Assembly (NCBI GenBank): GCA_030444405.1
Contig: JARFPM010000008.1
Location: 1 to 53,004, forward strand
From: Nitrospira sp.
Lineage (GTDB): Bacteria > Nitrospirota > Nitrospiria > Nitrospirales > Nitrospiraceae
Length of the DNA: 53,004 bases
Direction: 5' to 3'
The position numbers were made by a program, and so were the translations under genes. Of the stretch, positions 1 through 49,397 are shown one piece after another. The stretch's first letter is position 1; each line of letters begins with the position of its first letter. The notes under the pieces were generated by a model. It was not told where the DNA came from and did not search any database. It worked only from the letters and a program-made list of their open reading frames with translations.

Positions 1-164
1 CACAAACTTCGCGCAATGTCGCTGACCGAGTGTCCTTGCACGCAGTGCAGGATGATCTTGGCTCGCTCCACCAGGCGCGCTTCCTGGGTGCGGCTCCGCG
101 CCCACTCCTCCAGCGTCTTCCGGTCTGGTTCGGAACAATGCAACCCGTGTGGCGACTTGGGCAT
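1..164 (-). CDS. IS630-type transposase, N-terminal fragment (cut by window edge)
   Basis: Reading leftwards from an ATG at 164, 54 codons are visible before the window ends. The protein begins MPKSPHGLHC and continues with a helical segment (EARLVERAKIIL, then GHSVSDIAR) typical of the N-terminal helix-turn-helix of IS630/Tc1-mariner transposases. A strong ribosome site (AAGGAGG) ends 7 bases before the ATG and fixes the start. The catalytic DDE region lies outside the window, so whether the element is intact cannot be judged. The element's end probably lies between 165 and 220, directly next to the stop of the neighbouring hypothetical gene. I did not find a convincing terminal inverted repeat with only one end in view. 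Confidence 0.7.
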   Translation of the reverse strand, partial: MPKSPHGLHCSEPDRKTLEEWARSRTQEARLVERAKIILHCVQGHSVSDIARSL

Positions 165-38145: not shown

Positions 38146-38724
38146 CTAGTCCTTCTTCAGCGTGCTCATGAGATCCTGAATAGTTAACAGACTGATAAGC
38201 TGAAGCTTTTCTCTTTCCACACGCACTCTTCCATCCTGTTCTTGGCGGTCCACTATGACCAATGCATGATCCACCCGAAGCCCGGCCTCTCGCGCGACCC
38301 CCATCGCTTTCAGCAACGACCCACCGCTCGTGAGCACGTCGTCCACGATCAGCGCTCGATCGCCGGGACGAATGGTACCCTCGATCAACTTTCCAAGTCC
38401 ATGGTCTTTGGGCTGCTTGCGAACGACGAAAGTCCGCCAGAGACGCTGACGCGAAGCAGCGCAGGCAAAATCGGAAATGGTTACGGCAATCGGGATGGCT
38501 CCGAGTTCGAGGCCGCCCAGACAATCGAATTCAATGTCAGTGAGCGCTTCATAGGCCAGTTGGGCGACCAGACGACGCGCTTCCGGATGTGCCATGAGCG
38601 CGCGACAATCAACATAGAAGGGGCTGATCTCTCCGGATGCGAGCTTGAAGCCCTTCTCGCAATCCCACTTGAAGGACTGAGTATCATGGAACGCTTTCGC
38701 CAGTTCCTCTCGAAGCGTGACCAT
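38146..38724 (-). CDS. pyrE: orotate phosphoribosyltransferase
   Basis: PyrE adds ribose 5-phosphate from PRPP to orotate in pyrimidine synthesis. The 192 residues include FKLASGEISPFYVDCR near residue 25 and the PRPP-binding loop ALIVDDVLTSGGSLL near residue 122. A strong site (GGGAGG) precedes the ATG. It is convergent with the lipoprotein gene (30 bases between stops). No other pyrimidine gene is nearby. Upstream, 38725-38972 holds only a decayed cbiX end. Confidence 0.92.
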   Translation of the reverse strand: MVTLREELAKAFHDTQSFKWDCEKGFKLASGEISPFYVDCRALMAHPEARRLVAQLAYEALTDIEFDCLGGLELGAIPIAVTISDFACAASRQRLWRTFVVRKQPKDHGLGKLIEGTIRPGDRALIVDDVLTSGGSLLKAMGVAREAGLRVDHALVIVDRQEQDGRVRVEREKLQLISLLTIQDLMSTLKKD

Positions 38725-38804
38725 TCTTCCTCCCTCGTGCAGCAGACGATAGTGAGTGGCATTCTACACTGTCCAGCCGACCCATCACACAGTTTTTCAC
38801 AGCT

Positions 38805-38915
38805 TCAGTGAGGTGTGGGCTGAGAGAAGCAATGGATCTGTCGGGCCAAAACATTCGCCACGAGTTGCAGATCGAACGGCGAGGCGTAACGGAGGTCCAC
38901 ACTGGGATGCTGAGG
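38805..38915 (-). pseudogene. remnant of the cbiX 3' end
   Basis: Between pyrE and the CFA-synthase gene the minus strand reads PQHPSVDLRYASPFDL and then LVANVLARQ..FS before a stop at 38805. It matches the last 31 residues of the intact CbiX protein (46070-46579) at 21 positions, and 16 consecutive bases are identical (38887-38902 and 46137-46152). No start or upstream cbiX sequence is present, so it is a fragment. It has the same orientation as the intact gene and, with it, brackets the eight-gene lipid cluster. Confidence 0.75.
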
Positions 38916-38972
38916 CGAAGGGACGCTAGTACGACGCTGCTGCCTATCAGCGGAGAGGCCAGCCTCAGTGCC

Positions 38973-40277
38973 TCAGCATCCGACAGATTGAGGCCGCCAT
39001 TCCGGTTTGCAAAAGAGCATGTGGACGGTGCTGATTGTGCGCTCAAGGAAGCCGCCTTCACAGTAAGAGAGATAGAAGTCCCACAGGCGAAGGAATTCAG
39101 GTTGATACCCCAAGGCCTTGATCTCCGGAAGATTCGTGACAAGGTTCCTCCTCCAGGCCCGCAGCGTAGGAGCGTAGTGCACTCCGAGATCTTCAAAGTG
39201 AATCAGTGCCAGATCGCCGACTTTCGCAGACGCTTGCGTCAGAGCGCTCACGGACGGGATGCAGCTGCCGGGGAAAATGAAGCGTTGAATAAAGTCGACG
39301 GAGTGCTTTGCCCGCTCATAGAATCGTTCATCGATCGTGATGCCCTGAATGAGGGCCAACCCCTGAGGCGTCAACATGCGGCTACAGATCTCGAAAAACG
39401 TCCTGTAATACTGATGCCCGACGGCCTCGATCATTTCGATGGAGACGAGCTTGTCGAATTGCACACCTAGCGTCGGTAAATCCCGATAGTCCGTGAGCAA
39501 CACCGTGACTTGATCACTCAAGCGAGCTTCCTGAACTCGTTGCAGGGCCAGGTCATACTGCCGCCGCGAGATTGTCGTCGTCGTCACACGGCAACCATAG
39601 TGAGACGCGGCATGGATGGCGAATCCACCCCAACCGGAGCCGATCTCGAGGAGATGGTCGCTGGCGACCAACTGCAGCTTTCGACAGATGCGATCGTTCT
39701 TTGCGCGTGAGGCTTCCGCCAGCGTCGCATTCGGTCGCTCAAAGCAAGCGCAAGAGTACATCATCGTCTCGTCAAGCATGAGACGAAAGAACTCGTTGCC
39801 CAGATCGTAATGGGCTGCGATGTTCTTCCTGCTGCCGGCCTTCGTATTGCGATTCAGCCAATGGATCGTCTTGAACAATGGCCTCGTCGCCAGCGCCATG
39901 CCACCTTCCATGCGATCCAGGAGCGTGCGATTCAAGACGAAGATCCTAACCAAGGTCGTCAGATCGTCACAACTCCACAAACCACGGCGGTAGGCGTCAC
40001 CCAGTCCCACCGTTCCACCCAGCGTGATATCCGCATACACGCGAGGGTCGTGAATCCTCACGGTGGCTTTCAGCTGACAGCGAGAGGTGATTTGGCCAAA
40101 CTGGAAGTGCTCGTGTCCTTCCACGATCGTCACTGTGCCTGACTCCATCTTCGACAGGAGAGAGAAAACCTCCCGACGTGCGAGACGGTAAAACCAGGGC
40201 GTGATCGTCGAATGGACTTGTTGCGCGCTCGACCGATCGTTGAGCGCAATGCCGGGCGCAATGGTCTGATTGCTCAT
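38973..40277 (-). CDS. cfa: cyclopropane-fatty-acyl-phospholipid synthase-like methyltransferase (CFA 1)
   Basis: A 434-residue SAM-dependent enzyme that would methylate or cyclopropanate unsaturated acyl chains in membrane phospholipids. The C-terminal catalytic domain (from ~170) has MMYSCACFERPNATLAEA (the conserved Cys region), the SAM loop LLEIGSGWGGFAIHAA and SIEMIEAVGHQYYRTFF. A lipid-binding N-terminal domain includes RVYADITLGGTVGLGDAYRRG. The ATG at 40277 overlaps the DUF1365 stop (ATGA). It is the last gene of an eight-gene run and keeps the canonical cysteine, unlike its partner at 44954. Confidence 0.9.
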   Translation of the reverse strand: MSNQTIAPGIALNDRSSAQQVHSTITPWFYRLARREVFSLLSKMESGTVTIVEGHEHFQFGQITSRCQLKATVRIHDPRVYADITLGGTVGLGDAYRRGLWSCDDLTTLVRIFVLNRTLLDRMEGGMALATRPLFKTIHWLNRNTKAGSRKNIAAHYDLGNEFFRLMLDETMMYSCACFERPNATLAEASRAKNDRICRKLQLVASDHLLEIGSGWGGFAIHAASHYGCRVTTTTISRRQYDLALQRVQEARLSDQVTVLLTDYRDLPTLGVQFDKLVSIEMIEAVGHQYYRTFFEICSRMLTPQGLALIQGITIDERFYERAKHSVDFIQRFIFPGSCIPSVSALTQASAKVGDLALIHFEDLGVHYAPTLRAWRRNLVTNLPEIKALGYQPEFLRLWDFYLSYCEGGFLERTISTVHMLFCKPEWRPQSVGC

Positions 40278-41065
40278 GATGGTGTCTGACTCGTCGCCAC
40301 AGGCGACGGCTCCTTTGGTTTCTTGGGGTGGGCATAGAATGGGACACGCTTGGCCCAGAGTCTCAAGGCCTGCCAATGGATGGCACCGATGACCTTGGCC
40401 GTCATCAAGGGGTACTGGACAAGCACACGTGCGAGGGACGTACTCGATAGCTCCCGACGCTCTAGCCTCATCGTAGCGTCGAAAAAGGGCCTCCCTTCGC
40501 GAAGATTTTCCATATGGATGGCGAGTTGCGATGCCGGTTCGGTGAATCGCCAGTCGTAGGCGACGTCCATGTCGATAAAGGGCGAGATGTGGAACACCTT
40601 GTCGAGTCGGTAACGCTTCCTTCTGCCGCTGGCGCGATTGTCGTTCGTTCCCAGAACGTAACAGTGGCGCTCTCCCCATGGGGTATTCGTGATTTCCGCG
40701 ACGATGGTGTCAACAGAATCACCGGATCGGTCATAGCAAAAATAGAAGCTGACGGGGTTGAAGACATACCCAAAATAGCGGAAGTGAGTCAGGAGGCGGA
40801 TCGGTCCAGCCGGTCGACTGCCTGTTCTCTCCTCCACGAGTTGGCGGATCGATTCATCCAATGGAATGATTGGATCGCCGACATGGTCCACGCGATTGAA
40901 CGAAGCGAGGTTGGTGCGGTCAACTGACCAGAACCAGCGATCCTTAAAGACGGTCGGCAGTTCGTCCAGGTCCACATACATCATGAACAACCGGTAGGTG
41001 AACGCGTGCGGAACCGGACTGAACCGCCGGTGCCGAACGTGTCCCATATAGATCGCGCTCTTCAT
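40274..41065 (-). CDS. DUF1365 protein
   Basis: A 263-residue protein of the DUF1365 family, starting MKSAIYMGHVRHRRFSP and containing HAFTYRLFMMYVDL and YVFNPVSFYFCYDR, hallmark phrases of the family. DUF1365 genes typically lie beside a COG2907 flavoprotein and a CFA-type methyltransferase, exactly as here, and are thought to help modify acyl chains; the biochemical role is not established. Its start at 41065 overlaps the oxidase stop by one base (or GTG 41068, by four). Confidence 0.9.
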   Translation of the reverse strand: MKSAIYMGHVRHRRFSPVPHAFTYRLFMMYVDLDELPTVFKDRWFWSVDRTNLASFNRVDHVGDPIIPLDESIRQLVEERTGSRPAGPIRLLTHFRYFGYVFNPVSFYFCYDRSGDSVDTIVAEITNTPWGERHCYVLGTNDNRASGRRKRYRLDKVFHISPFIDMDVAYDWRFTEPASQLAIHMENLREGRPFFDATMRLERRELSSTSLARVLVQYPLMTAKVIGAIHWQALRLWAKRVPFYAHPKKPKEPSPVATSQTPS

Positions 41066-42324
41066 CACGAGAGATCCTTCCCGAATGGCTTACAAACGGC
41101 CAGAGCACTGTTCACTCCGTCCTCGTGAAACCCAAAACCCCAGTAGGCACCGCAATAGGACGTCCGATTGACGCCGTTGATCTCGCCGTGGCGCTTCTGT
41201 GCGGCAACGGCTTCCGGTGAGTACACCGGATGATGATAGGTGATGCGACGAAGGATCTTGGCTGGATTGATGGCCTGTGAGTGATTGAGCGTGACACAGA
41301 ACTCACAGGGTGCGGTCAGGCTCTGAAGCTTGTTCATGTGGTAGGTCAGAACCGCACGATCCGGCTGGGAGCCAAGCAGGTGGTAATTCCATGCGGCCCA
41401 GGCCAGTTTCCGCTTGGGGAGCAACGACGTGTCGGTGTGCAACACCGCTTCATTCTCTTGATAGTGGATCGCCCCCAATACCTCCTTTTCTGTCGGTGAG
41501 GGGTCGGCCAGCATCGAGAGGGCTTGATCGCTGTGCGTGGCGATGATCACATGGTCGAATCGCAGAGCTCGGTAGTTTTGCCCTTGCATCTTCGCGCGGA
41601 TCTCCACGTAATCCGGGAAACGGCTCATTGACTCGACCGGGGAGTTGAGATGAATCCGGTTGCGGAACAGCGCGACGAGTTTCTCACTATACCGCTGCGA
41701 GCCACCCTTGATGACCCGCCACGTCGGTCGCTCATCGACCGAAAGCATGCCATGGTTCTTGAAAAACTGGACGAGGTGCCGGGCCGGAAACTTCCACATG
41801 CTCTCGTGACCGGCTGACCAAATCGCGGCTCCCATTGGGACAATGTAGTGATCGATGAACTCCCTTGAGTATCGGTGAGTCTCCAGATAGGAGCCGAGTG
41901 ATGGACCTGGCTCCGGCAGAGTCAGCAGTTCAGGCGACTCACGATTGAAGCGCAGGATGTCCTGTATCATGCGGTAGAACGAGGGGCGAAGCAGGTTTCG
42001 CCGCTGGGCGAACAGTGTATTCAGCGACGTCCCATTGTACTCGAGGCCGGTTCGCTCGCACTTCACACCGAAGCTCATGTCGCTCGGTTGCGATTCCACG
42101 CCCAGTTTCTGGAGCAAGGCCATGAAGTTCGGGTAGGTCCAATCGTTAAACACAATGAATCCGGTGTCTATGGCGTAACCTCGGCCTTCCATCGGGACTT
42201 CGACCGTATTGGTATGTCCGCCGATGTAGTCAGCGGCTTCAAACACGGTAACCTCATGATCTCGGTGTAAGAGATACGCGGCGACCATGCCGGAGATGCC
42301 TGTACCGACGATGGCGATTCTCAT
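41065..42324 (-). CDS. COG2907-type FAD-dependent oxidase/desaturase
   Basis: A 419-residue flavoprotein with an N-terminal FAD-binding Rossmann motif (VGTGISGMVAAYL, then EAADYIGGHT) and an amine-oxidase-like fold. Homologues in Rhodobacter sphaeroides are reported to act in forming methyl-branched or furan fatty acids alongside a CFA-type methyltransferase; that role is recalled, not shown here. GAGGG five bases before ATG 42324 sets the start; residues further upstream are unlikely. Immediate coupling to DUF1365 and CFA supports a shared acyl-chain pathway. Confidence 0.88.
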   Translation of the reverse strand: MRIAIVGTGISGMVAAYLLHRDHEVTVFEAADYIGGHTNTVEVPMEGRGYAIDTGFIVFNDWTYPNFMALLQKLGVESQPSDMSFGVKCERTGLEYNGTSLNTLFAQRRNLLRPSFYRMIQDILRFNRESPELLTLPEPGPSLGSYLETHRYSREFIDHYIVPMGAAIWSAGHESMWKFPARHLVQFFKNHGMLSVDERPTWRVIKGGSQRYSEKLVALFRNRIHLNSPVESMSRFPDYVEIRAKMQGQNYRALRFDHVIIATHSDQALSMLADPSPTEKEVLGAIHYQENEAVLHTDTSLLPKRKLAWAAWNYHLLGSQPDRAVLTYHMNKLQSLTAPCEFCVTLNHSQAINPAKILRRITYHHPVYSPEAVAAQKRHGEINGVNRTSYCGAYWGFGFHEDGVNSALAVCKPFGKDLS

Positions 42325-42396
42325 GATGCCCTCACTGACTCCTTCCGCCATTCCCGGGCCGTCCGACCCGGATGGCCCGGCAAGGCGGTATTGTCA

Positions 42397-42927
42397 CTAT
42401 CTCCACCGTTGCGGGACCTTGCGGACTTTGGAAACATCGTAGCCTTCCTGGGCGATGAGTGTGAGAAACCGTTGATAGTCCGAATCGGGAATTTCAGGTG
42501 TTCGCGCCATCAACCACACGTAATCACGCGCGGTTCTTCCGATGACCGTTTGACTGTAGGACTCATCCAGAAAGACGATGCGATAGTCGGCCTGGATGGG
42601 CCAGAAGAACTGCATACCCCAGACAGCGTTCGATTCCCGATCAAGAACGTAGCCGGTAGGATGGTACGTTTTGAGATCGCCGTCGAAGCTGCCCTGGCGG
42701 AAACTGAAAGTCGTGGCCACGGTACCGTCCTGCGCCAGGCGATAGGATTCTACGGCATTGTGGGCGTCCCGCTCGATCCACGTGGGAATATTGGCGATGA
42801 CATACCAGTCACCCATGAACCGCTCCAAGTCCACGGCCGTCGCGGTGTGAATGGGTGGTGGGCTGCTGCAGGCTGCGAGTCCGAGCAGCACAACGGGCAT
42901 GAAGAGTGATGGCATCACAGATGACAT
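42397..42927 (-). CDS. blc: lipocalin lipoprotein (Blc type)
   Basis: A 176-residue outer-envelope lipocalin. The signal peptide ends in the lipobox LAAC. The lipocalin signature FMGDWYVIANIP (GxW motif) lies near residue 38 and the domain closes with PQRWR. Bacterial Blc proteins bind lysophospholipids and fatty acids, which suits a cluster that alters membrane lipids. GAGG five bases before ATG 42927 supports the start, just eight bases after the DUF6134 stop. Confidence 0.9.
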   Translation of the reverse strand: MSSVMPSLFMPVVLLGLAACSSPPPIHTATAVDLERFMGDWYVIANIPTWIERDAHNAVESYRLAQDGTVATTFSFRQGSFDGDLKTYHPTGYVLDRESNAVWGMQFFWPIQADYRIVFLDESYSQTVIGRTARDYVWLMARTPEIPDSDYQRFLTLIAQEGYDVSKVRKVPQRWR

Positions 42928-42934
42928 GCTGTCC

Positions 42935-43606
42935 TCACTGGAGCACATACCGAAGGGTATCGCCCTTCTTTGTGGTGGAGTGAAGGGCGACCCAGCGGCC
43001 GTTTAAGGTGTACCAGAGATCGATCGTGAACTTGTCCGTCACGATGCGGCGATGTGTGGTTCGTGTCGGGACTCCCTGCACGGGGATCGTCTCTTCGCCC
43101 GCCGCAAGAATGGAAGCGGGTTGATGTTCGCCGGTCTGCGAATTCAGCAATCGCTCACCCGTGATCCACTCAGAGTTCCAGTAGGCAAAGGTCTTGATAC
43201 ATCCCTCGCCGATCCAGTTCCCGGCCTGTGTCTGCACCTCCAACTGCCCGTTCCGAAAGATGCCGTTCACGAAGAAGGACTCGCCGTTATCATCAGTCTC
43301 CGCGCGAATCTCGCGCAGGCATGTTCCCTCCCATGTTTCGACGTTGGTATGACGATAGGTATAGACGGTGATATACAGGAACTTGACTGTGAACCGCGCG
43401 GCTACCCGGACCTGGGTCCGCTCGCCTTCCGTAGAGACGTCAAAGCGCTGGCGTCCGATTTCATCCTTGCCGAGGAAGACCTTGAAGTCATAGGTCTGCG
43501 AACTGGCACTCCAAGCCGGTTGTGACGAACTTCCAAGGCATGTCAGGAATCCGAGGAGGGCCACCACGATACGAAACCCGCTGGTTATGGAGCACACTCT
43601 GATCAT
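42935..43606 (-). CDS. exported DUF6134-like protein
   Basis: A 223-residue protein with an N-terminal signal sequence (hydrophobic core IVVALLGFLTCLG, cleavage near AWSA). The mature part starts YDFKVFLGKDEIGRQRFDV, which I link to the DUF6134 family; function unknown. It is a mostly beta protein that would act in the periplasm. The start at 43606 overlaps the DUF1295 stop (ATGA). In related clusters DUF3833 or similar small exported proteins occupy this place. Confidence 0.72.
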   Translation of the reverse strand: MIRVCSITSGFRIVVALLGFLTCLGSSSQPAWSASSQTYDFKVFLGKDEIGRQRFDVSTEGERTQVRVAARFTVKFLYITVYTYRHTNVETWEGTCLREIRAETDDNGESFFVNGIFRNGQLEVQTQAGNWIGEGCIKTFAYWNSEWITGERLLNSQTGEHQPASILAAGEETIPVQGVPTRTTHRRIVTDKFTIDLWYTLNGRWVALHSTTKKGDTLRYVLQ

Positions 43607-44409
43607 GACGTCTGTTTCCTGGAAATGGAGCCACACGTACCCTGTTTCGGTGGACCGGGAATGAAGGCATTGGTCCTGGCGATGTATGCTCGATACGCCG
43701 GTCGCCGCTCGACGATGGTCTGCTCCAACAAGGTTACACCTGAGAATTTCAAAAGCATGTATGTGAGGAGCAGCGGCCCCACGACAGTCCACCAGGCTCC
43801 CGTCGGTATCGCGAAGAAATAGAAGCCCCACCAGATCAGGCACTCGCCGAAGTAGTTGGGATGACGGGTGTAGCGCCAGACTCCGCGGTCCATCACCTTC
43901 CCGTGGTTCTCCGGGTCGGCCTTGAACCTTGACAGCTGCCAATCCCCGATGCCTTCGAAGGTCATGCCGACGGTCCATACCATCACCGCGAGCACATCAA
44001 ATGTTCCCCAATCGACCGGTACGGTGAGAGCCGGCCACAGGGGCATGGAGATGAGCCACGCCAGTCCCGCCTGAAACCAGAAGATGATACCAAGACTCTT
44101 CCATGCGAAATTGGGTTCGTATTTCTGGCGAATGTCTCGATAACGCCGATCCTCGGGCTCACCCCAGTTGCGATGGATGATATGACCTGACAGGCGCACG
44201 GCCCACAGCACAACCAGCGTCAGGATGAGCGTCGTCCGTCTGGTATCGGGCTCCGGACCGGTGGCGTACACCGTCGCGGCAGCGAGGAGCATCAAGGCCC
44301 ACAGGCCGTCCACAATGCTCACATCGCGCTTGAGGACGCTGACCACCCATGTCACAGTCGCCAGACCCAGCGTTGAAACCAGTCCCAAGACATAGAGTGA
44401 TAGACTCAT
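43603..44409 (-). CDS. DUF1295 membrane protein (steroid 5-alpha-reductase-like fold)
   Basis: A 268-residue integral membrane protein with six or seven helices. The C-terminal region carries YTRHPNYFGECLIWWGFY, the signature of DUF1295 and of isoprenylcysteine methyltransferase/5-alpha-reductase relatives. Such proteins use NADPH or SAM near the membrane surface; the substrate here is unknown. The start overlaps the DUF2878 stop (4 bases). It shares the cluster with CFA-type enzymes, so lipid reduction is plausible. Confidence 0.9.
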   Translation of the reverse strand: MSLSLYVLGLVSTLGLATVTWVVSVLKRDVSIVDGLWALMLLAAATVYATGPEPDTRRTTLILTLVVLWAVRLSGHIIHRNWGEPEDRRYRDIRQKYEPNFAWKSLGIIFWFQAGLAWLISMPLWPALTVPVDWGTFDVLAVMVWTVGMTFEGIGDWQLSRFKADPENHGKVMDRGVWRYTRHPNYFGECLIWWGFYFFAIPTGAWWTVVGPLLLTYMLLKFSGVTLLEQTIVERRPAYRAYIARTNAFIPGPPKQGTCGSISRKQTS

Positions 44410-44957
44410 GACATCTTCTCTTCCAGCAGGCCGGCATAGCCGTCAAAGCGAGCTGACAGCGCCAGCAGCAGCGGTGTCAGCACCGCCCAGCCGATGGCCA
44501 GAGCCAACAGCCCCGCGGGCATATTGCCGAATTCCAGCGCCCCGAGGCGGAGGCCGCCGTAGTAGGCGGCTGGGCCCCCGGCGGCCCCAAACACCACCGC
44601 GATGACCCAGCGCCCTCTCATCCAACGCAACGAGACATTCAAGAGGGTTGCGAAGAGCCCCCACAAGGCCACGATCCAATAGGGGGCGATGTTCGGCACC
44701 AGCATTCCCGATGAATAGGTGAGCCAGCCCTGCCATACCAACAGGCTGTCGAAGACGAGTCCCAAGGCAAGTGTCAGGAATACCAGTTTGAGCTCCGCCT
44801 TTGGCAAGGGAGCGCGGAGCACGTGCGCGAGCACCACTCCAGTCGTCACAAGCACGCCGATCCAGGGCTGGTGCGCCGCGGCGCTCCACACGCACGCAAA
44901 CCAGCCGATTTGAAAGAGCAGGAAGTTGCTCACGATCATCGTGGTGCTCATCTTCAT
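44406..44957 (-). CDS. DUF2878 membrane protein
   Basis: A 183-residue protein with about five membrane helices, starting MKMSTTMIVSNFLLFQIGWF. The phrase FDSLLVWQGW and the family's length match DUF2878, usually found beside CFA-type methyltransferases and DUF1295. The function is unknown. ATG 44957 overlaps the stop of the upstream methyltransferase (ATGA); the stop overlaps DUF1295. Confidence 0.85.
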   Translation of the reverse strand: MKMSTTMIVSNFLLFQIGWFACVWSAAAHQPWIGVLVTTGVVLAHVLRAPLPKAELKLVFLTLALGLVFDSLLVWQGWLTYSSGMLVPNIAPYWIVALWGLFATLLNVSLRWMRGRWVIAVVFGAAGGPAAYYGGLRLGALEFGNMPAGLLALAIGWAVLTPLLLALSARFDGYAGLLEEKMS

Positions 44958-46033
44958 GAACCACTCGCCGCCGGTTTTTCGAAGAGATAGTGACTGACCC
45001 CCCATTGTCGGCCCTCCTCATAGCCGAACAGCTCGGCACAGGCCATGAAGAAGATACGCCACCGCCCCCACCAGGCTCGCGCGCATGCCTTGCCGTAGAC
45101 ACGCTCGATCACAGGCCACAATGTCTCGCGGGCGGCATCCATATTGGCCAGCCAGGCGTTGGCCGTTTTCTCATAATGCGTGCCGTTCCACTGCCAGCGG
45201 CCCACGCAGGCCAGATGGTCTTGACAGGCCAGCGGTAGACCATCGCTAGGCATCATCCCACCAGTGAAAAAATGACGACTCATCCAATCAGCAGGTCCCC
45301 GGTCTTCGAACAGGTACGAAGTAGCGCGATGCACGAACACGTGCATAAAGAACTGGCCGCCCGGTCTCAACCATCGGCGCACACGCGCAAAGAGCTCAGG
45401 CCAGTTACGCATGTGCTCGAACATTTCCACCGACACCACCCGATCGAATAGCCCTGGGTCGACCTCGAACGTGTTCATGTCGCAGGTCATTACGTGAATC
45501 TGGTTTTGTAGGCCTCGTTCTCTGGCTTGGGCCTCGATGTAAGACCGCTGCGAACGGGAATTGGAGACCGCCGTGATATGGCTGTCAGGGTAGTGCTCAG
45601 CCATCCACAACGTGAGAGACCCCCAGCCGCATCCGAGCTCCAGAATCGTCTGCCCGTTCATCAGGCCCGCATGCAGGCAGGACTCAAGCAAACCGGCGGC
45701 TTCTGCTTGGTCTAGGGTCGTCGCATTGGCGGGCCAGAAGGCGCTGCTGTATTTCAGATGCGGCCCGAGGACCTGCCTGAAGAACTCAACCGGGACCTCA
45801 TAGTGCTGATCATTGGCTTTCTCCGGTACCACTGCGATGGGCGCACGACGCATCTCCTCGATAAATCTCATTTCCTGCCGTGCTGCGGTTTGAGCGTCAC
45901 CCGACCGGATCTCACGGAGGCGCTGCATAAGCAACTGCCGAATCCCCCATCGAGTCGCCACATCAGGAAAGAATCCCAGTTCAGCCAGGTTCAATGTGAG
46001 ACGAGTGAGATGTTGCAAGGGCTTAGTCTCCAA
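44954..46033 (-). CDS. CFA-synthase-family SAM methyltransferase (CFA 2, divergent)
   Basis: A ~359-residue class I SAM methyltransferase: LELGCGWGSLTLWMAEHYP (SAM loop) near residue 135 and VVSVEMFEHMRNW near 205. It is related to CFA synthases but differs at the conserved cysteine: YSSAFW where the cognate CFA protein has YSCACF. It may therefore methylate acyl chains without ring closure, like the methylases reported for branched or furan fatty acids; this is an inference. The only in-frame start at the 5' end is TTG 46033, with no ribosome site, so the start is uncertain. It is the first gene of the eight-gene run and lies 36 bases after cbiX. Confidence 0.85.
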   Translation of the reverse strand: METKPLQHLTRLTLNLAELGFFPDVATRWGIRQLLMQRLREIRSGDAQTAARQEMRFIEEMRRAPIAVVPEKANDQHYEVPVEFFRQVLGPHLKYSSAFWPANATTLDQAEAAGLLESCLHAGLMNGQTILELGCGWGSLTLWMAEHYPDSHITAVSNSRSQRSYIEAQARERGLQNQIHVMTCDMNTFEVDPGLFDRVVSVEMFEHMRNWPELFARVRRWLRPGGQFFMHVFVHRATSYLFEDRGPADWMSRHFFTGGMMPSDGLPLACQDHLACVGRWQWNGTHYEKTANAWLANMDAARETLWPVIERVYGKACARAWWGRWRIFFMACAELFGYEEGRQWGVSHYLFEKPAASGS

Positions 46034-46069
46034 ACAAACGTGCGCATATGGATAGCGCTCTAGCCATCG

Positions 46070-46579
46070 TCATGAAAAACGCTTCACCTGCTCCGCCAAG
46101 GTGTTGGCGACTGAGTCGAGATCAAACGGCCAGGCATAACGGAGGTCCACACCGGGATACTGTGGCCGCAACTGATCGAGGATTTCCGGAATCTCGACTT
46201 CCGAATGAGACCCGCCTGGTGTGAACATCGTCGTCGTCACGGTAATATGAGTCGCCCCCTGCTTGATCAAGGCCTCGACCGATTCCTCCAACGTCGGTGC
46301 ACAAAACTCATTGTAGGCCACGGCAAAAAGCGCGCCGTCGAGTTGAGTCCGAAGGCGCGCCGCTACTGTTTCAAGACCGGCTTGGTAGGGATCCGTTTCC
46401 GCGGTTCTCGGCCACTGGCGGATCTTGGTATCCAGCTCACGTTCTTCCACAGAAGGGGGACGTTTCGCAGCACGCCGCTGCGCTTCCAACCGTTTAAGTT
46501 GCGTGACTAATTCCTGAGGGCACCCCTTGGGAATGCCACCGTGACCAACCAGAATCACTCCTCGTGTGATTGCCGCCAT
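46070..46579 (-). CDS. cbiX: CbiX-type sirohydrochlorin chelatase
   Basis: A 169-residue protein beginning MAAITRGVILVGHGG, with the metal-binding His in GHG and a second in FTPGGSHSEVEIP near residue 125. CbiX-like enzymes insert Co or Fe into sirohydrochlorin for cobalamin or siroheme. An insertion (residues ~35-60, RRAAKRPPSVEERELD) is longer than in short CbiX proteins. It is followed 36 bases later by the lipid cluster. A decayed second copy of its 3' end lies at 38805. Confidence 0.85.
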   Translation of the reverse strand: MAAITRGVILVGHGGIPKGCPQELVTQLKRLEAQRRAAKRPPSVEERELDTKIRQWPRTAETDPYQAGLETVAARLRTQLDGALFAVAYNEFCAPTLEESVEALIKQGATHITVTTTMFTPGGSHSEVEIPEILDQLRPQYPGVDLRYAWPFDLDSVANTLAEQVKRFS

Positions 46580-46618: not shown

Positions 46619-46990
46619 TCACTCTGAACTCACTGTTGCCTCGAGGTATTCCTGCAGATTAGTCTTTCCATAGCGACTTCCCGGGTACACCTTCCGAATG
46701 AATCCGGCGACGAGGGCCATCACTTTCTTCACGGCGGGGGTTTTCTCAGGGTCGGTGGCAGGCAGCAACCGAACCGTGATGGCTTTCTCGTGCAACTTGA
46801 GCTGGACAAAGAAACTGCTCGAAGTGCCTTGCTCGATCGCCACGGACTCAAGCAGTGCGTCTTTTCCGCTCCGCGACAAATAGAATTCCTGAACTTTGAG
46901 AATCTCGTTTCCGGTTCGGTGAACCATCGGCGTGAACGCTTGATAGAGGCCCTGCAGATCACCGGCTTCTTCTACGACAACATGTGGCAT
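46619..46990 (-). CDS. hypothetical protein
   Basis: A 123-residue soluble protein (MPHVVVEEAGDLQGLYQ...), alpha/beta in character, with no family I can name. It ends in a lysine- and valine-rich helix (VKKVMALVAGFIRKVYPG). AGGGGGA about seven bases before the ATG gives good support for translation. It lies between cbiX and the DUF523/DUF1722 gene, all on the minus strand and separated by 39 and 11 bases. Confidence 0.7.
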   Translation of the reverse strand: MPHVVVEEAGDLQGLYQAFTPMVHRTGNEILKVQEFYLSRSGKDALLESVAIEQGTSSSFFVQLKLHEKAITVRLLPATDPEKTPAVKKVMALVAGFIRKVYPGSRYGKTNLQEYLEATVSSE

Positions 46991-47001: not shown

Positions 47002-47955
47002 CTACGCATGATTCCGCAACATGAGCTCTTTCGGATGCGGGTTAAGATAAACCTGATCGCGAATGTAACTGACGTCAAATATGTGCACATAGTGCTTGAT
47101 CAAAGTCAGTGGGACGATCAAAGGGGTAAGCCCCCGATGGTAGTCGGCGATCACGTCCAACAGCTCGGCCTTTTCAGGAGTGGTCAATCGACTCTTGAAG
47201 TAGCCCACAATATGCTGCAGCACATTGACATGCTTACGCACCGTCGCCTTCATGATCAGGGCTCTCATGAAGTGGTCACCGTACTTCACCGCCAATTCTT
47301 TGAGTCGATACCGCTCCGCTTGACCGACCAGACGCCCCATCGTTTCGTAGTGCTGCTGGCTATGTGCTAACAGGAGATATTTATGGATCGTGTGGAAGCG
47401 TATCAGAGCCTGTTTCGTAACTCCGTTGTGCATCAGATCTTGGAACCGGCGGTAGCAGAACACGCGCTCGATGAAGTTCTCCCGAAGCAATGGATCACAG
47501 AGCCGCCCTTCTTCCTCGACGGGGATCAACGGAAACTGTTCTAGAAAGGCTTTTGCAAAGATTCCGACGCCGCTCTGGCTCGGCATTCCCTGTGCGGTGT
47601 ACACGCGCACCCGTTCAACCCCGCAACTGGGCGAGCCTCTCTTGAAGACAAACCCTGAGAGGTCCAGTGTGCGGAGTGAGTTGAGCCGTTCGTCCAGCAT
47701 CGACTCCATCGCCTGGGTGTGATCGTGCTTGCTTGTAATAGTCATCAGCCGGGGGTGATGCGGATTGCCCACCAACCGCATGGCTTCACGCGGGGTGCCC
47801 AATCCTGCCTCCACCTCTGGGCATACCGGTACCCATTCGACGTAACGGCCCAATACATCCGTTAAGAAATGGTCCTGCTTGTGTCCTCCGTCGAAGCGGA
47901 CCTCATCTCCGAGAAGACAGCGACTGATTCCAAGGCGAAGCGGGGAGGTCGTCAT
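47002..47955 (-). CDS. DUF523-DUF1722 protein (YbgA-like)
   Basis: A 317-residue two-domain protein. The N-terminal DUF523 domain has ISRCLLGDEVRFDGGHK and CGVERV. The C-terminal DUF1722 domain has LIRFHTIHKYLLLAHSQQHY. DUF1722 (E. coli YbgA) genes commonly lie next to photolyase, and here the ATG at 47955 overlaps the photolyase stop (ATGA). AGGAGG seven bases upstream of the ATG fixes the start. The biochemical role is unknown; a link to photolyase or DNA repair is contextual. Confidence 0.9.
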   Translation of the reverse strand: MTTSPLRLGISRCLLGDEVRFDGGHKQDHFLTDVLGRYVEWVPVCPEVEAGLGTPREAMRLVGNPHHPRLMTITSKHDHTQAMESMLDERLNSLRTLDLSGFVFKRGSPSCGVERVRVYTAQGMPSQSGVGIFAKAFLEQFPLIPVEEEGRLCDPLLRENFIERVFCYRRFQDLMHNGVTKQALIRFHTIHKYLLLAHSQQHYETMGRLVGQAERYRLKELAVKYGDHFMRALIMKATVRKHVNVLQHIVGYFKSRLTTPEKAELLDVIADYHRGLTPLIVPLTLIKHYVHIFDVSYIRDQVYLNPHPKELMLRNHA

Positions 47956-49397
47956 CTCGTTGCCTCCTGCTTCCCGAGGGTGAGATATTCCTGGCGGGCA
48001 AGCTGATGGTCCACAATCGGTGAAGGATAATCGGTCCCGATTCGGCATCCAGCGCGTGCCTGCTCATCTGCGGTCATGAGATGCGGCTCATGAATCCTCT
48101 TTGCCGGTACTCGGGCAAGTTCCGGAACATAGCGGCGAATGTACGCGCCGTCCTGGTCGAACTTCTTACTCTGCAGCGCTGGATTGAAGATCCGATAACC
48201 GCGCATGGCATCCGTACCGGTCGAGGCACACCACTGCCAATTGCCGTTGTTTGCTGCCACGTCAGCATCAAGGAGGTGCTGCATGAAATACCGTTCGCCG
48301 CTCTGCCAGTCGATCCGAAGATCTTTGATCAGAAAGGACGCAACGACCATCCTGACACGGTTGTGCATCCAGCCCGTTTGATTGAGTTGCCTCATCCCCG
48401 CATCCACGATCGGATAGCCGGTCTGCCCATTGCACCAGGCTTGAAACAGGGAATCATGTTCCGGACCAGGCTCACGGGACGGCGGGACGGCCACCTTGCG
48501 GAATGGTCCCTCTGCAACGTGTGGAAACGATGCCAAGACTTGCTGAAAGAACTCACGCCAGATCAACTCATCGATCCAGGTGAGGACACCGATCCGGGAC
48601 ACCTGCCCACCTTTGGCCAACGCATTCAGCGCCTCGTGAATGGCCACGCGAGGAGACAGGGTTCCGAAACGGAAGTGCGGCGAAAGCTTTGAGCTTCCAT
48701 CGATGGCCGGCAGATTCCTGCTTTGCGCATACGAATGAATCGGCTCTTTAGTGAACCAGCGCAACCTCTTCTGCGCGCTCCGCTCGCCCGGCTCAATCCA
48801 GGGTACGGCCGGATCGTACCCCAGCTCACTGGCTGAGGGGAGAAGACGAGAGATAGGCAGTAGGGCAGCTTTCTTTTTCGCAAGGGCGGGTGGGATCGGC
48901 TGAACTTCCGGGGTTGTTGCATGCCATTTCGTCCACCAGCGTGCGCGATAGGCGCTGTAGCGCTGGAGTGGCTCGCCGGTCGCGCTACGTACCTCATCCG
49001 CTTCAAATACGACATGGTCCTTGAACGTCCGCACCGTCACTCCCAACTGGCTCAGTTGCTGTTGGGCGAGACGATCTCGCTCGACTGCTCCCGGCTCGTA
49101 GTCACGATTCCAATAGACCACGTCGGCCTTCCAATCACTCGCCGCTCGCACAATGTGTTTAACTGGCTCGCCGCGACGCCACTGAAGCGGGACTCCATGA
49201 TCGGCTAGTGAGGACGCAAGTTGCCCTAGACACCCAAGCATGAAGTTGACGCAGGCTGACCCAAACTTATGCGATTGCAGCAACGGCTCATCGAACACAA
49301 ACAGCGGAATGACCTCGTCGCATTCTTGGCAGGCTGCTGTGAGTGCCGGCTGGTCATGCAATCGAAGATCGCGCCTGAACCAAACCATCCCACGCAT
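47952..49397 (-). CDS. phrB: deoxyribodipyrimidine photolyase (class I CPD)
   Basis: A 481-residue flavoprotein that splits cyclobutane pyrimidine dimers with blue light. The antenna domain starts WFRRDLRLHDQPALT. The FAD domain has TGYPIVDAGMRQLNQTGWMHNRVR and NNGNWQWCASTGTDA, the class I signatures. AGGGGG precedes the ATG at 49397. The gene is coupled to the YbgA-like gene and lies a few kilobases from the lipid cluster, which suits a photo-damage response. Confidence 0.94.
   Translation of the reverse strand: MRGMVWFRRDLRLHDQPALTAACQECDEVIPLFVFDEPLLQSHKFGSACVNFMLGCLGQLASSLADHGVPLQWRRGEPVKHIVRAASDWKADVVYWNRDYEPGAVERDRLAQQQLSQLGVTVRTFKDHVVFEADEVRSATGEPLQRYSAYRARWWTKWHATTPEVQPIPPALAKKKAALLPISRLLPSASELGYDPAVPWIEPGERSAQKRLRWFTKEPIHSYAQSRNLPAIDGSSKLSPHFRFGTLSPRVAIHEALNALAKGGQVSRIGVLTWIDELIWREFFQQVLASFPHVAEGPFRKVAVPPSREPGPEHDSLFQAWCNGQTGYPIVDAGMRQLNQTGWMHNRVRMVVASFLIKDLRIDWQSGERYFMQHLLDADVAANNGNWQWCASTGTDAMRGYRIFNPALQSKKFDQDGAYIRRYVPELARVPAKRIHEPHLMTADEQARAGCRIGTDYPSPIVDHQLARQEYLTLGKQEATR

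Follow-up and report, generated by a model that had tools for sequence, protein, structure and literature searches.

The eight-gene lipid cluster lying between cbiX and pyrE in a comammox-type Nitrospira appears to have come to this place together with its own cbiX gene, leaving the tail of the resident cbiX behind as a scar. We analyzed a window of 53,004 nt, which is the whole stretch of DNA considered here, from Nitrospira sp. (assembly GCA_030444405.1, contig JARFPM010000008.1). Its genome, G000 below, belongs to an ammonia-oxidising Nitrospira with AmoA. With a probability of about 0.6, a linear block replaced resident DNA, with a homologous left end and an illegitimate right end inside the resident cbiX, and was afterwards passed on by allelic exchange. 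This reading is carried by the cbiX remnant itself, the ancestral cbiX-pyrE order, the presence of the cluster in two genomic contexts, and conflicting trees along the block. Nearly all of the key genomes are draft MAGs.

All genes described here lie on the minus strand. Downstream of the intact cbiX (46070-46579, PF01903; CbiX domain 48.6 bits vs. a gathering score of 22), the cluster runs through cfa1, a CMAS-family methyltransferase gene identified by domain match (44954-46033), then genes for DUF2878 (44406-45005), DUF1295 (43603-44409), and DUF6134 proteins (42935-43603, start codon uncertain), likewise by domain match, a Blc-like lipocalin (42397-42948, PF08212; NF007786 below its cut-off), an FAD-dependent amine-oxidase/desaturase-type protein assigned by domain match (FAD oxidoreductase, 41065-42351), and a DUF1365 protein recognized by its Pfam domain (40274-41068). 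The last gene, cfa2, codes a second CMAS-family methyltransferase (38973-40277, PF02353, E 2e-81), and its start codon was placed by the 434-aa G013 orthologue. Both CMAS proteins score below the NCBIfam Cfa equivalog cut-off (278.6 and 143.7 bits vs. 400), and their products are assignable to the CMAS superfamily only. The domain search shows that all eight genes are metabolic or belong to DUF families. None of the eight codes for an integrase, as the original prediction had stated; a tRNA gene is absent there too, and an Rfam search gave no matches.

The prediction had also described the cluster as one tightly overlapping lipid-modification operon. The co-directional run extends farther upstream, with short gaps or overlaps, via cbiX, h46619, a RudS-type gene (2-thiouracil desulfurase and DUF1722 domains, 47002-48048), and a DNA photolyase gene (47952-49397), and reaches 49397. 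The h46619 product (46619-46990, 123 aa) has no Pfam or NCBIfam matches; its gene adjoins RudS in nearly all cluster-bearing loci and is absent from those of RSF8 and CG24D.

The cbiX remnant beside pyrE (38823-38918) is genuine. When the intact cbiX is compared with its own genome by tblastn, the remnant is the sole further match (66% identity over 32 aa, residues 138-169, E 4e-6). The 21 matches in 31-32 residues, the 16-base identical run (GTGTGGACCTCCGTTA), and the shared orientation noticed earlier all hold. The shuffle test proposed at that time places the similarity above chance: the local DNA score is 39, while the maximum among 1000 dinucleotide-preserving shuffles is 16. By blastn the remnant reaches 60.8 bits vs. 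a maximum of 39.2 among 300 codon-shuffled cbiX sequences, and the 3′ ends of 24 other window genes, taken as a control, reach at most 28.3 bits. A repeat search of this region found one direct repeat and no inverted repeats.

It is useful to trace this locus across the genus. Our sample for the cluster survey comprised 35 genomes, including that of the window; named contigs supplied UBA2082, MDeep, and others in addition. Nine of the 35 (G000, G002, G005, G013, G014, G020, G026, G030, and G033) have a close homologue of the cluster FAD gene. In the rpoB comparison, G000 groups with G028, G016, G024, G010, and G001, all of which are without the cluster. That the cluster was gained between cbiX and pyrE has good support, since these nearest relatives have cbiX directly before pyrE. 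The locus comparison that had been suggested gave the same order in cluster-less Nitrospira relatives generally, where cbiX lies about 100 bp upstream of pyrE. The distance from remnant to pyrE in the window is 98 bp, which indicates that the remnant sits at the old cbiX place. No cluster-less relative with the identical cbiX fragment beside pyrE was found; the decayed cbiX at this place in G013 is a different one and nearly full-length. Upstream of pyrE, the motif AGTGTAGAAT (window 38761-38770), kept in many relatives, is likely the -10 region of the pyrE promoter.

Among canonical Nitrospira carriers of the cluster, no cbiX remnant was found between cfa2 and pyrE (scores 9-15, shuffle maxima 13-19), and in some of them a DUF2878 gene, intact or decayed, lies there instead. 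This second DUF2878 gene is intact in L166 (16753-17244), has a stop in L114 (17178-17657), and is apparently decayed in L055 (13201-13330). The closest relatives of cfa1 beyond Nitrospira are mostly gamma- and betaproteobacterial (55-65%).

If the remnant marks the old cbiX place, then we can ask: Which cbiX does it come from? By itself the window remnant is not long enough to be typed (type I 43.5, type II 42.5, canonical 40), so its assignment to the resident gene depends on position and on the G013 remnant. Longer copies of it are present in G013 and G020 (window vs. G020, 157/191 identical; G013 vs. G020, 204/227). The G013 copy, which extends back to about cbiX residue 61, matches best the pyrE-locus cbiX of G003, with a score of 76.5 vs. 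40.5 for the FAD-locus type described below. Relative to G013, about 230 bp of remnant are missing in the window at 38919-38972, the spacer between the cfa2 stop and the remnant, which is common to the two genomes. The tails are also informative. Cluster-linked cbiX genes end in VKRFS* or nearly so, and the comammox ones whose 3′ end can be read (window, G013, G020, UBA2082, and MDeep) all end in VKRFS*; most cluster-less pyrE-linked comammox cbiX genes carry a C-terminal extension. Against G001 and G003, the window remnant aligns beyond the VKRFS* stop and on into their extension and spacer. Most likely the fragment is the tail of a displaced resident pyrE-linked cbiX, native extension included, and not a duplicate of the intact gene, which most likely travelled with the cluster.

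The VKRFS tail is not unique to cluster carriers, because G017 has a cbiX of this type with no cluster adjoining. We had considered VKRFS* as a hybrid tip gained with the cluster and dropped this idea after G017, preferring a whole separate cbiX type. Three cluster-less genomes, G001, G029, and G019 (L034, L038, and L040), combine a cluster-type cbiX body with a native-type tail, which shows that the history of the block is more tangled than a single path. Four cbiX pieces were seen in G013 (L097, L098, and L045): the cluster-linked intact gene and its remnant, a stub of 45 residues preceding the FAD gene, and the decayed copy before pyrE. In G020, the remnant (L046, 4290-4507) is joined to a pufL-like sequence upstream; this low-coverage contig is probably chimeric, and we do not trust it on that side.

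The cluster has a second context. In UBA2082, MDeep, and G005 it is followed by an FAD oxidoreductase gene rather than pyrE, and a cbiX remnant lies directly after cfa2. The cluster-less genomes G011 and G032 show the plain cbiX-FAD order at this FAD locus. Remnants of the FAD context score 48-67 against the FAD-locus cbiX type and at most 44 against any other; G002 is also consistent with the FAD-locus type. Remnant type thus matches local cbiX type, which points to the local resident gene as the source of the scar in both contexts. Two contexts, each with its own resident tail, argue that insertion took place at least twice and cut short the local cbiX each time. The cleanest junction is that of UBA2082, where cfa2 runs at its end into cbiX-derived DNA (TGGCGGCC/TGGGGGCC) with a microhomology of 7/8 nt. 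The junction in the window, of the pyrE context, is decayed. In cluster-less FAD loci, two genes separate h46619 from cbiX; UBA2082 and MDeep lack both, as replacement predicts; this loss suits a linear replacement better than integration of a circle. One comammox genome has an AmoC gene (L102, 4124-4696) close to its FAD-context cbiX locus.

The history of the block in the window's own lineage is different from that of a first insertion. The identity profile along the window switches sharply at about 38.7 kb: pyrE (38146-38724) and the sequence beyond it are similar to G028, G016, and G001, and the cluster side to G013 and G020. The pyrE DNA is 83-90% identical to the former three genomes and 72-80% to the latter two; together with the right-flank tree this suggests that pyrE is native to the G000 lineage. 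The pyrE upstream spacer (38725-38822) is G020-like (81/97 identical), while cluster-less comammox relatives share with the window 58-69 positions of 91-96. The cluster 3′ half places G000 with G013 and G020 at 100, and the window photolyase-rudS region groups with G013. AU tests reject a G000+G013+G020 clade for the right flank (p 6e-8), G000+G001 for photolyase-rudS (p 0.006), and the native clade for rudS (p 0.001) and for the cbiX body (p 2e-7); their groups were chosen after the identity profile had been seen, so these p values are indicative. A native pyrE side beside a G013/G020-like cluster side implies that block and scar entered the G000 lineage already joined. The whole block looks imported, with its right boundary at the pyrE start. 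Thus the predicted gain of the cluster stands, but its first insertion was probably not in this lineage, as the scar is common to G013 and G020.

Within the block, canonical-comammox divergence is much lower at 42.8-45.9 kb, the cluster 5′ half, than in the 3′ half, and in every comammox carrier this half lies close to the canonical group. Such closeness suggests a later gene conversion overlaying the first event. A canonical tract in G000 only was considered and rejected for 42.8-45.9 kb, because G000 stays among the other comammox carriers in the tree.

In the preferred reading, a linear chromosome stretch with photolyase, rudS, h46619, cbiX, and the eight lipid genes would have entered other Nitrospira and been incorporated into their chromosomes by recombination, with no dedicated integrase. 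The left crossover would have used homology in the photolyase/rudS/h46619 region; RudS, and at the FAD locus h46619 too, is common to cluster-bearing and cluster-less loci and can serve as the homologous anchor. At the right end, just past cfa2, an illegitimate joint within the resident cbiX would have cost this gene its 5′ part and spared the 3′ tail. The outcome would be cbiX-cluster-ΔcbiX-pyrE at the pyrE locus (window and G020; in G013 the block would have moved elsewhere) and cbiX-cluster-ΔcbiX-FAD at the FAD locus (UBA2082, MDeep, and G005). Allelic exchange with a G013/G020-like donor would later have brought the pyrE version into the G000 lineage, the right crossover falling near the pyrE start. 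The linear uptake, the illegitimate right end, and the direction of transfer are what we infer here from genome comparison. Since the same cluster displaced a different cbiX at another locus in other species, it appears to have spread by ordinary DNA recombination, not as its own mobile element. We tentatively extend this to cbiX as a recurrent landing place, where the integrase-free photolyase-RudS-cbiX-lipid block truncates the resident cbiX, its own cbiX survives, and the cluster may later be lost through cbiX-cbiX recombination, as the hybrid cbiX genes of G001, G029, and G019 suggest.

Other explanations must be weighed against this replacement. A circular DNA with cbiX and the cluster could have integrated by a single crossover, giving two full cbiX genes of which the second decayed. 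The direct-repeat arrangement and the reach of the G013 remnant to about residue 61 agree with it. However, a circle would keep the resident left flank, and h46619 is present in the window though cluster-less cbiX-pyrE relatives are without it; the two genes before the FAD-locus cbiX are gone in UBA2082 and MDeep, and no genome was seen with two full flanking cbiX copies. We regard this origin as doubtful. It is unlikely that the cluster stood between two cbiX copies from the start and that most species have lost it. The hybrid cbiX of G001, G029, and G019 is the product expected of such a deletion by cbiX-cbiX recombination, but the presence of the cluster in the genus is patchy (9/35), its flank trees conflict, and its two contexts have different resident tails. 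Duplication of the intact cbiX 3′ end with insertion of the cluster, the reading first offered for the fragment, has in its favor the 48 bp repeat with 88% identity (38869-38916/46119-46166). It is improbable, because the remnant runs into an extension absent from the intact cbiX, keeps the ancestral spacing to pyrE, and has counterparts matching the resident type at each of two loci, including that of G013. Island integration at a site in the cbiX 3′ end, also offered originally, with later loss of the integrase, is very improbable: gene 3′ ends are frequent island targets, but there is no integrase among the cluster genes, the only repeat found is imperfect with no exact att-like one, and the junction point differs (at cbiX residue 72 in UBA2082, at about 61 or still farther upstream in G013). 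Assembly chimerism at about 38.7 kb, which the draft state of the MAG and the sharp identity switch might suggest, is hardly to be expected, as G020 shows the same remnant-spacer-pyrE junction and the genome has one intact cbiX and one pyrE, with no second pyrE or resident cbiX found.

The replacement would be of a known kind, and what makes it interesting is that it recurs at cbiX in two loci. In homology-facilitated illegitimate recombination, one end is homologous, the other is joined at short microhomology, and recipient DNA is lost at the joint. This process is cited for natural transformation of Acinetobacter baylyi (PMC8116780). The Nitrospira block resembles it in having a homologous anchor at one end and in the recipient DNA lost at the junction (the resident cbiX 5′ part and, in UBA2082 and MDeep, two more genes). 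In contrast to A. baylyi, the Nitrospira event is read from genome fossils, and the incoming DNA carries a homologue of the recipient gene that is truncated. Type-matched scars at two loci would show how an adaptive cluster moved without a mobile element among slow-growing, mostly uncultured nitrifiers, with donor type, junctions, and later exchange readable in the sequence.

The gene content of the block also has known parallels. We take ybgA to be related to DUF1722, the domain of the window RudS-type protein. In Shewanella oneidensis, the SO_3386-SO_3374 operon of the RpoE2-ChrR regulon unites ybgA, phrB (photolyase), and cfa, and the regulon also holds a periplasmic GPx and a ferrochelatase (PMC4336711). 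The Nitrospira block likewise has a DUF1722-type gene, photolyase, and cfa in one run, but its cbiX sits between RudS and cfa1; no co-occurrence of a ChrR cupin with the cluster was found, and no RpoE2-type promoter motif stands out at it. The light-induced pmlR1 region of Pseudomonas mendocina contains phrB, SDR, FAD oxidoreductase, and ufaM (PMC9758184). Photolyase, FAD oxidoreductase, and fatty-acid methylase stand together in Nitrospira too, while common light control is a feature of the Pseudomonas region and we noticed no LitR gene in the neighborhood of the window cluster. With the furan fatty acid genes ufaM/ufaD/ufaO of Rhodobacter sphaeroides (PMC7380195), the cluster shares, by family only, a CMAS (SAM-dependent fatty-acyl methylase) and an FAD desaturase-like protein; unlike them, it has two CMAS genes plus lipocalin and DUF genes. 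RudS genes themselves often occur in light-responsive operons (PMC11417400). From these operon parallels, a role in membrane lipids and light or oxidative stress is likely but unproven, and by homology and gene content the block is a putative membrane-lipid and photo-oxidative stress module, a candidate of this kind in comammox Nitrospira.
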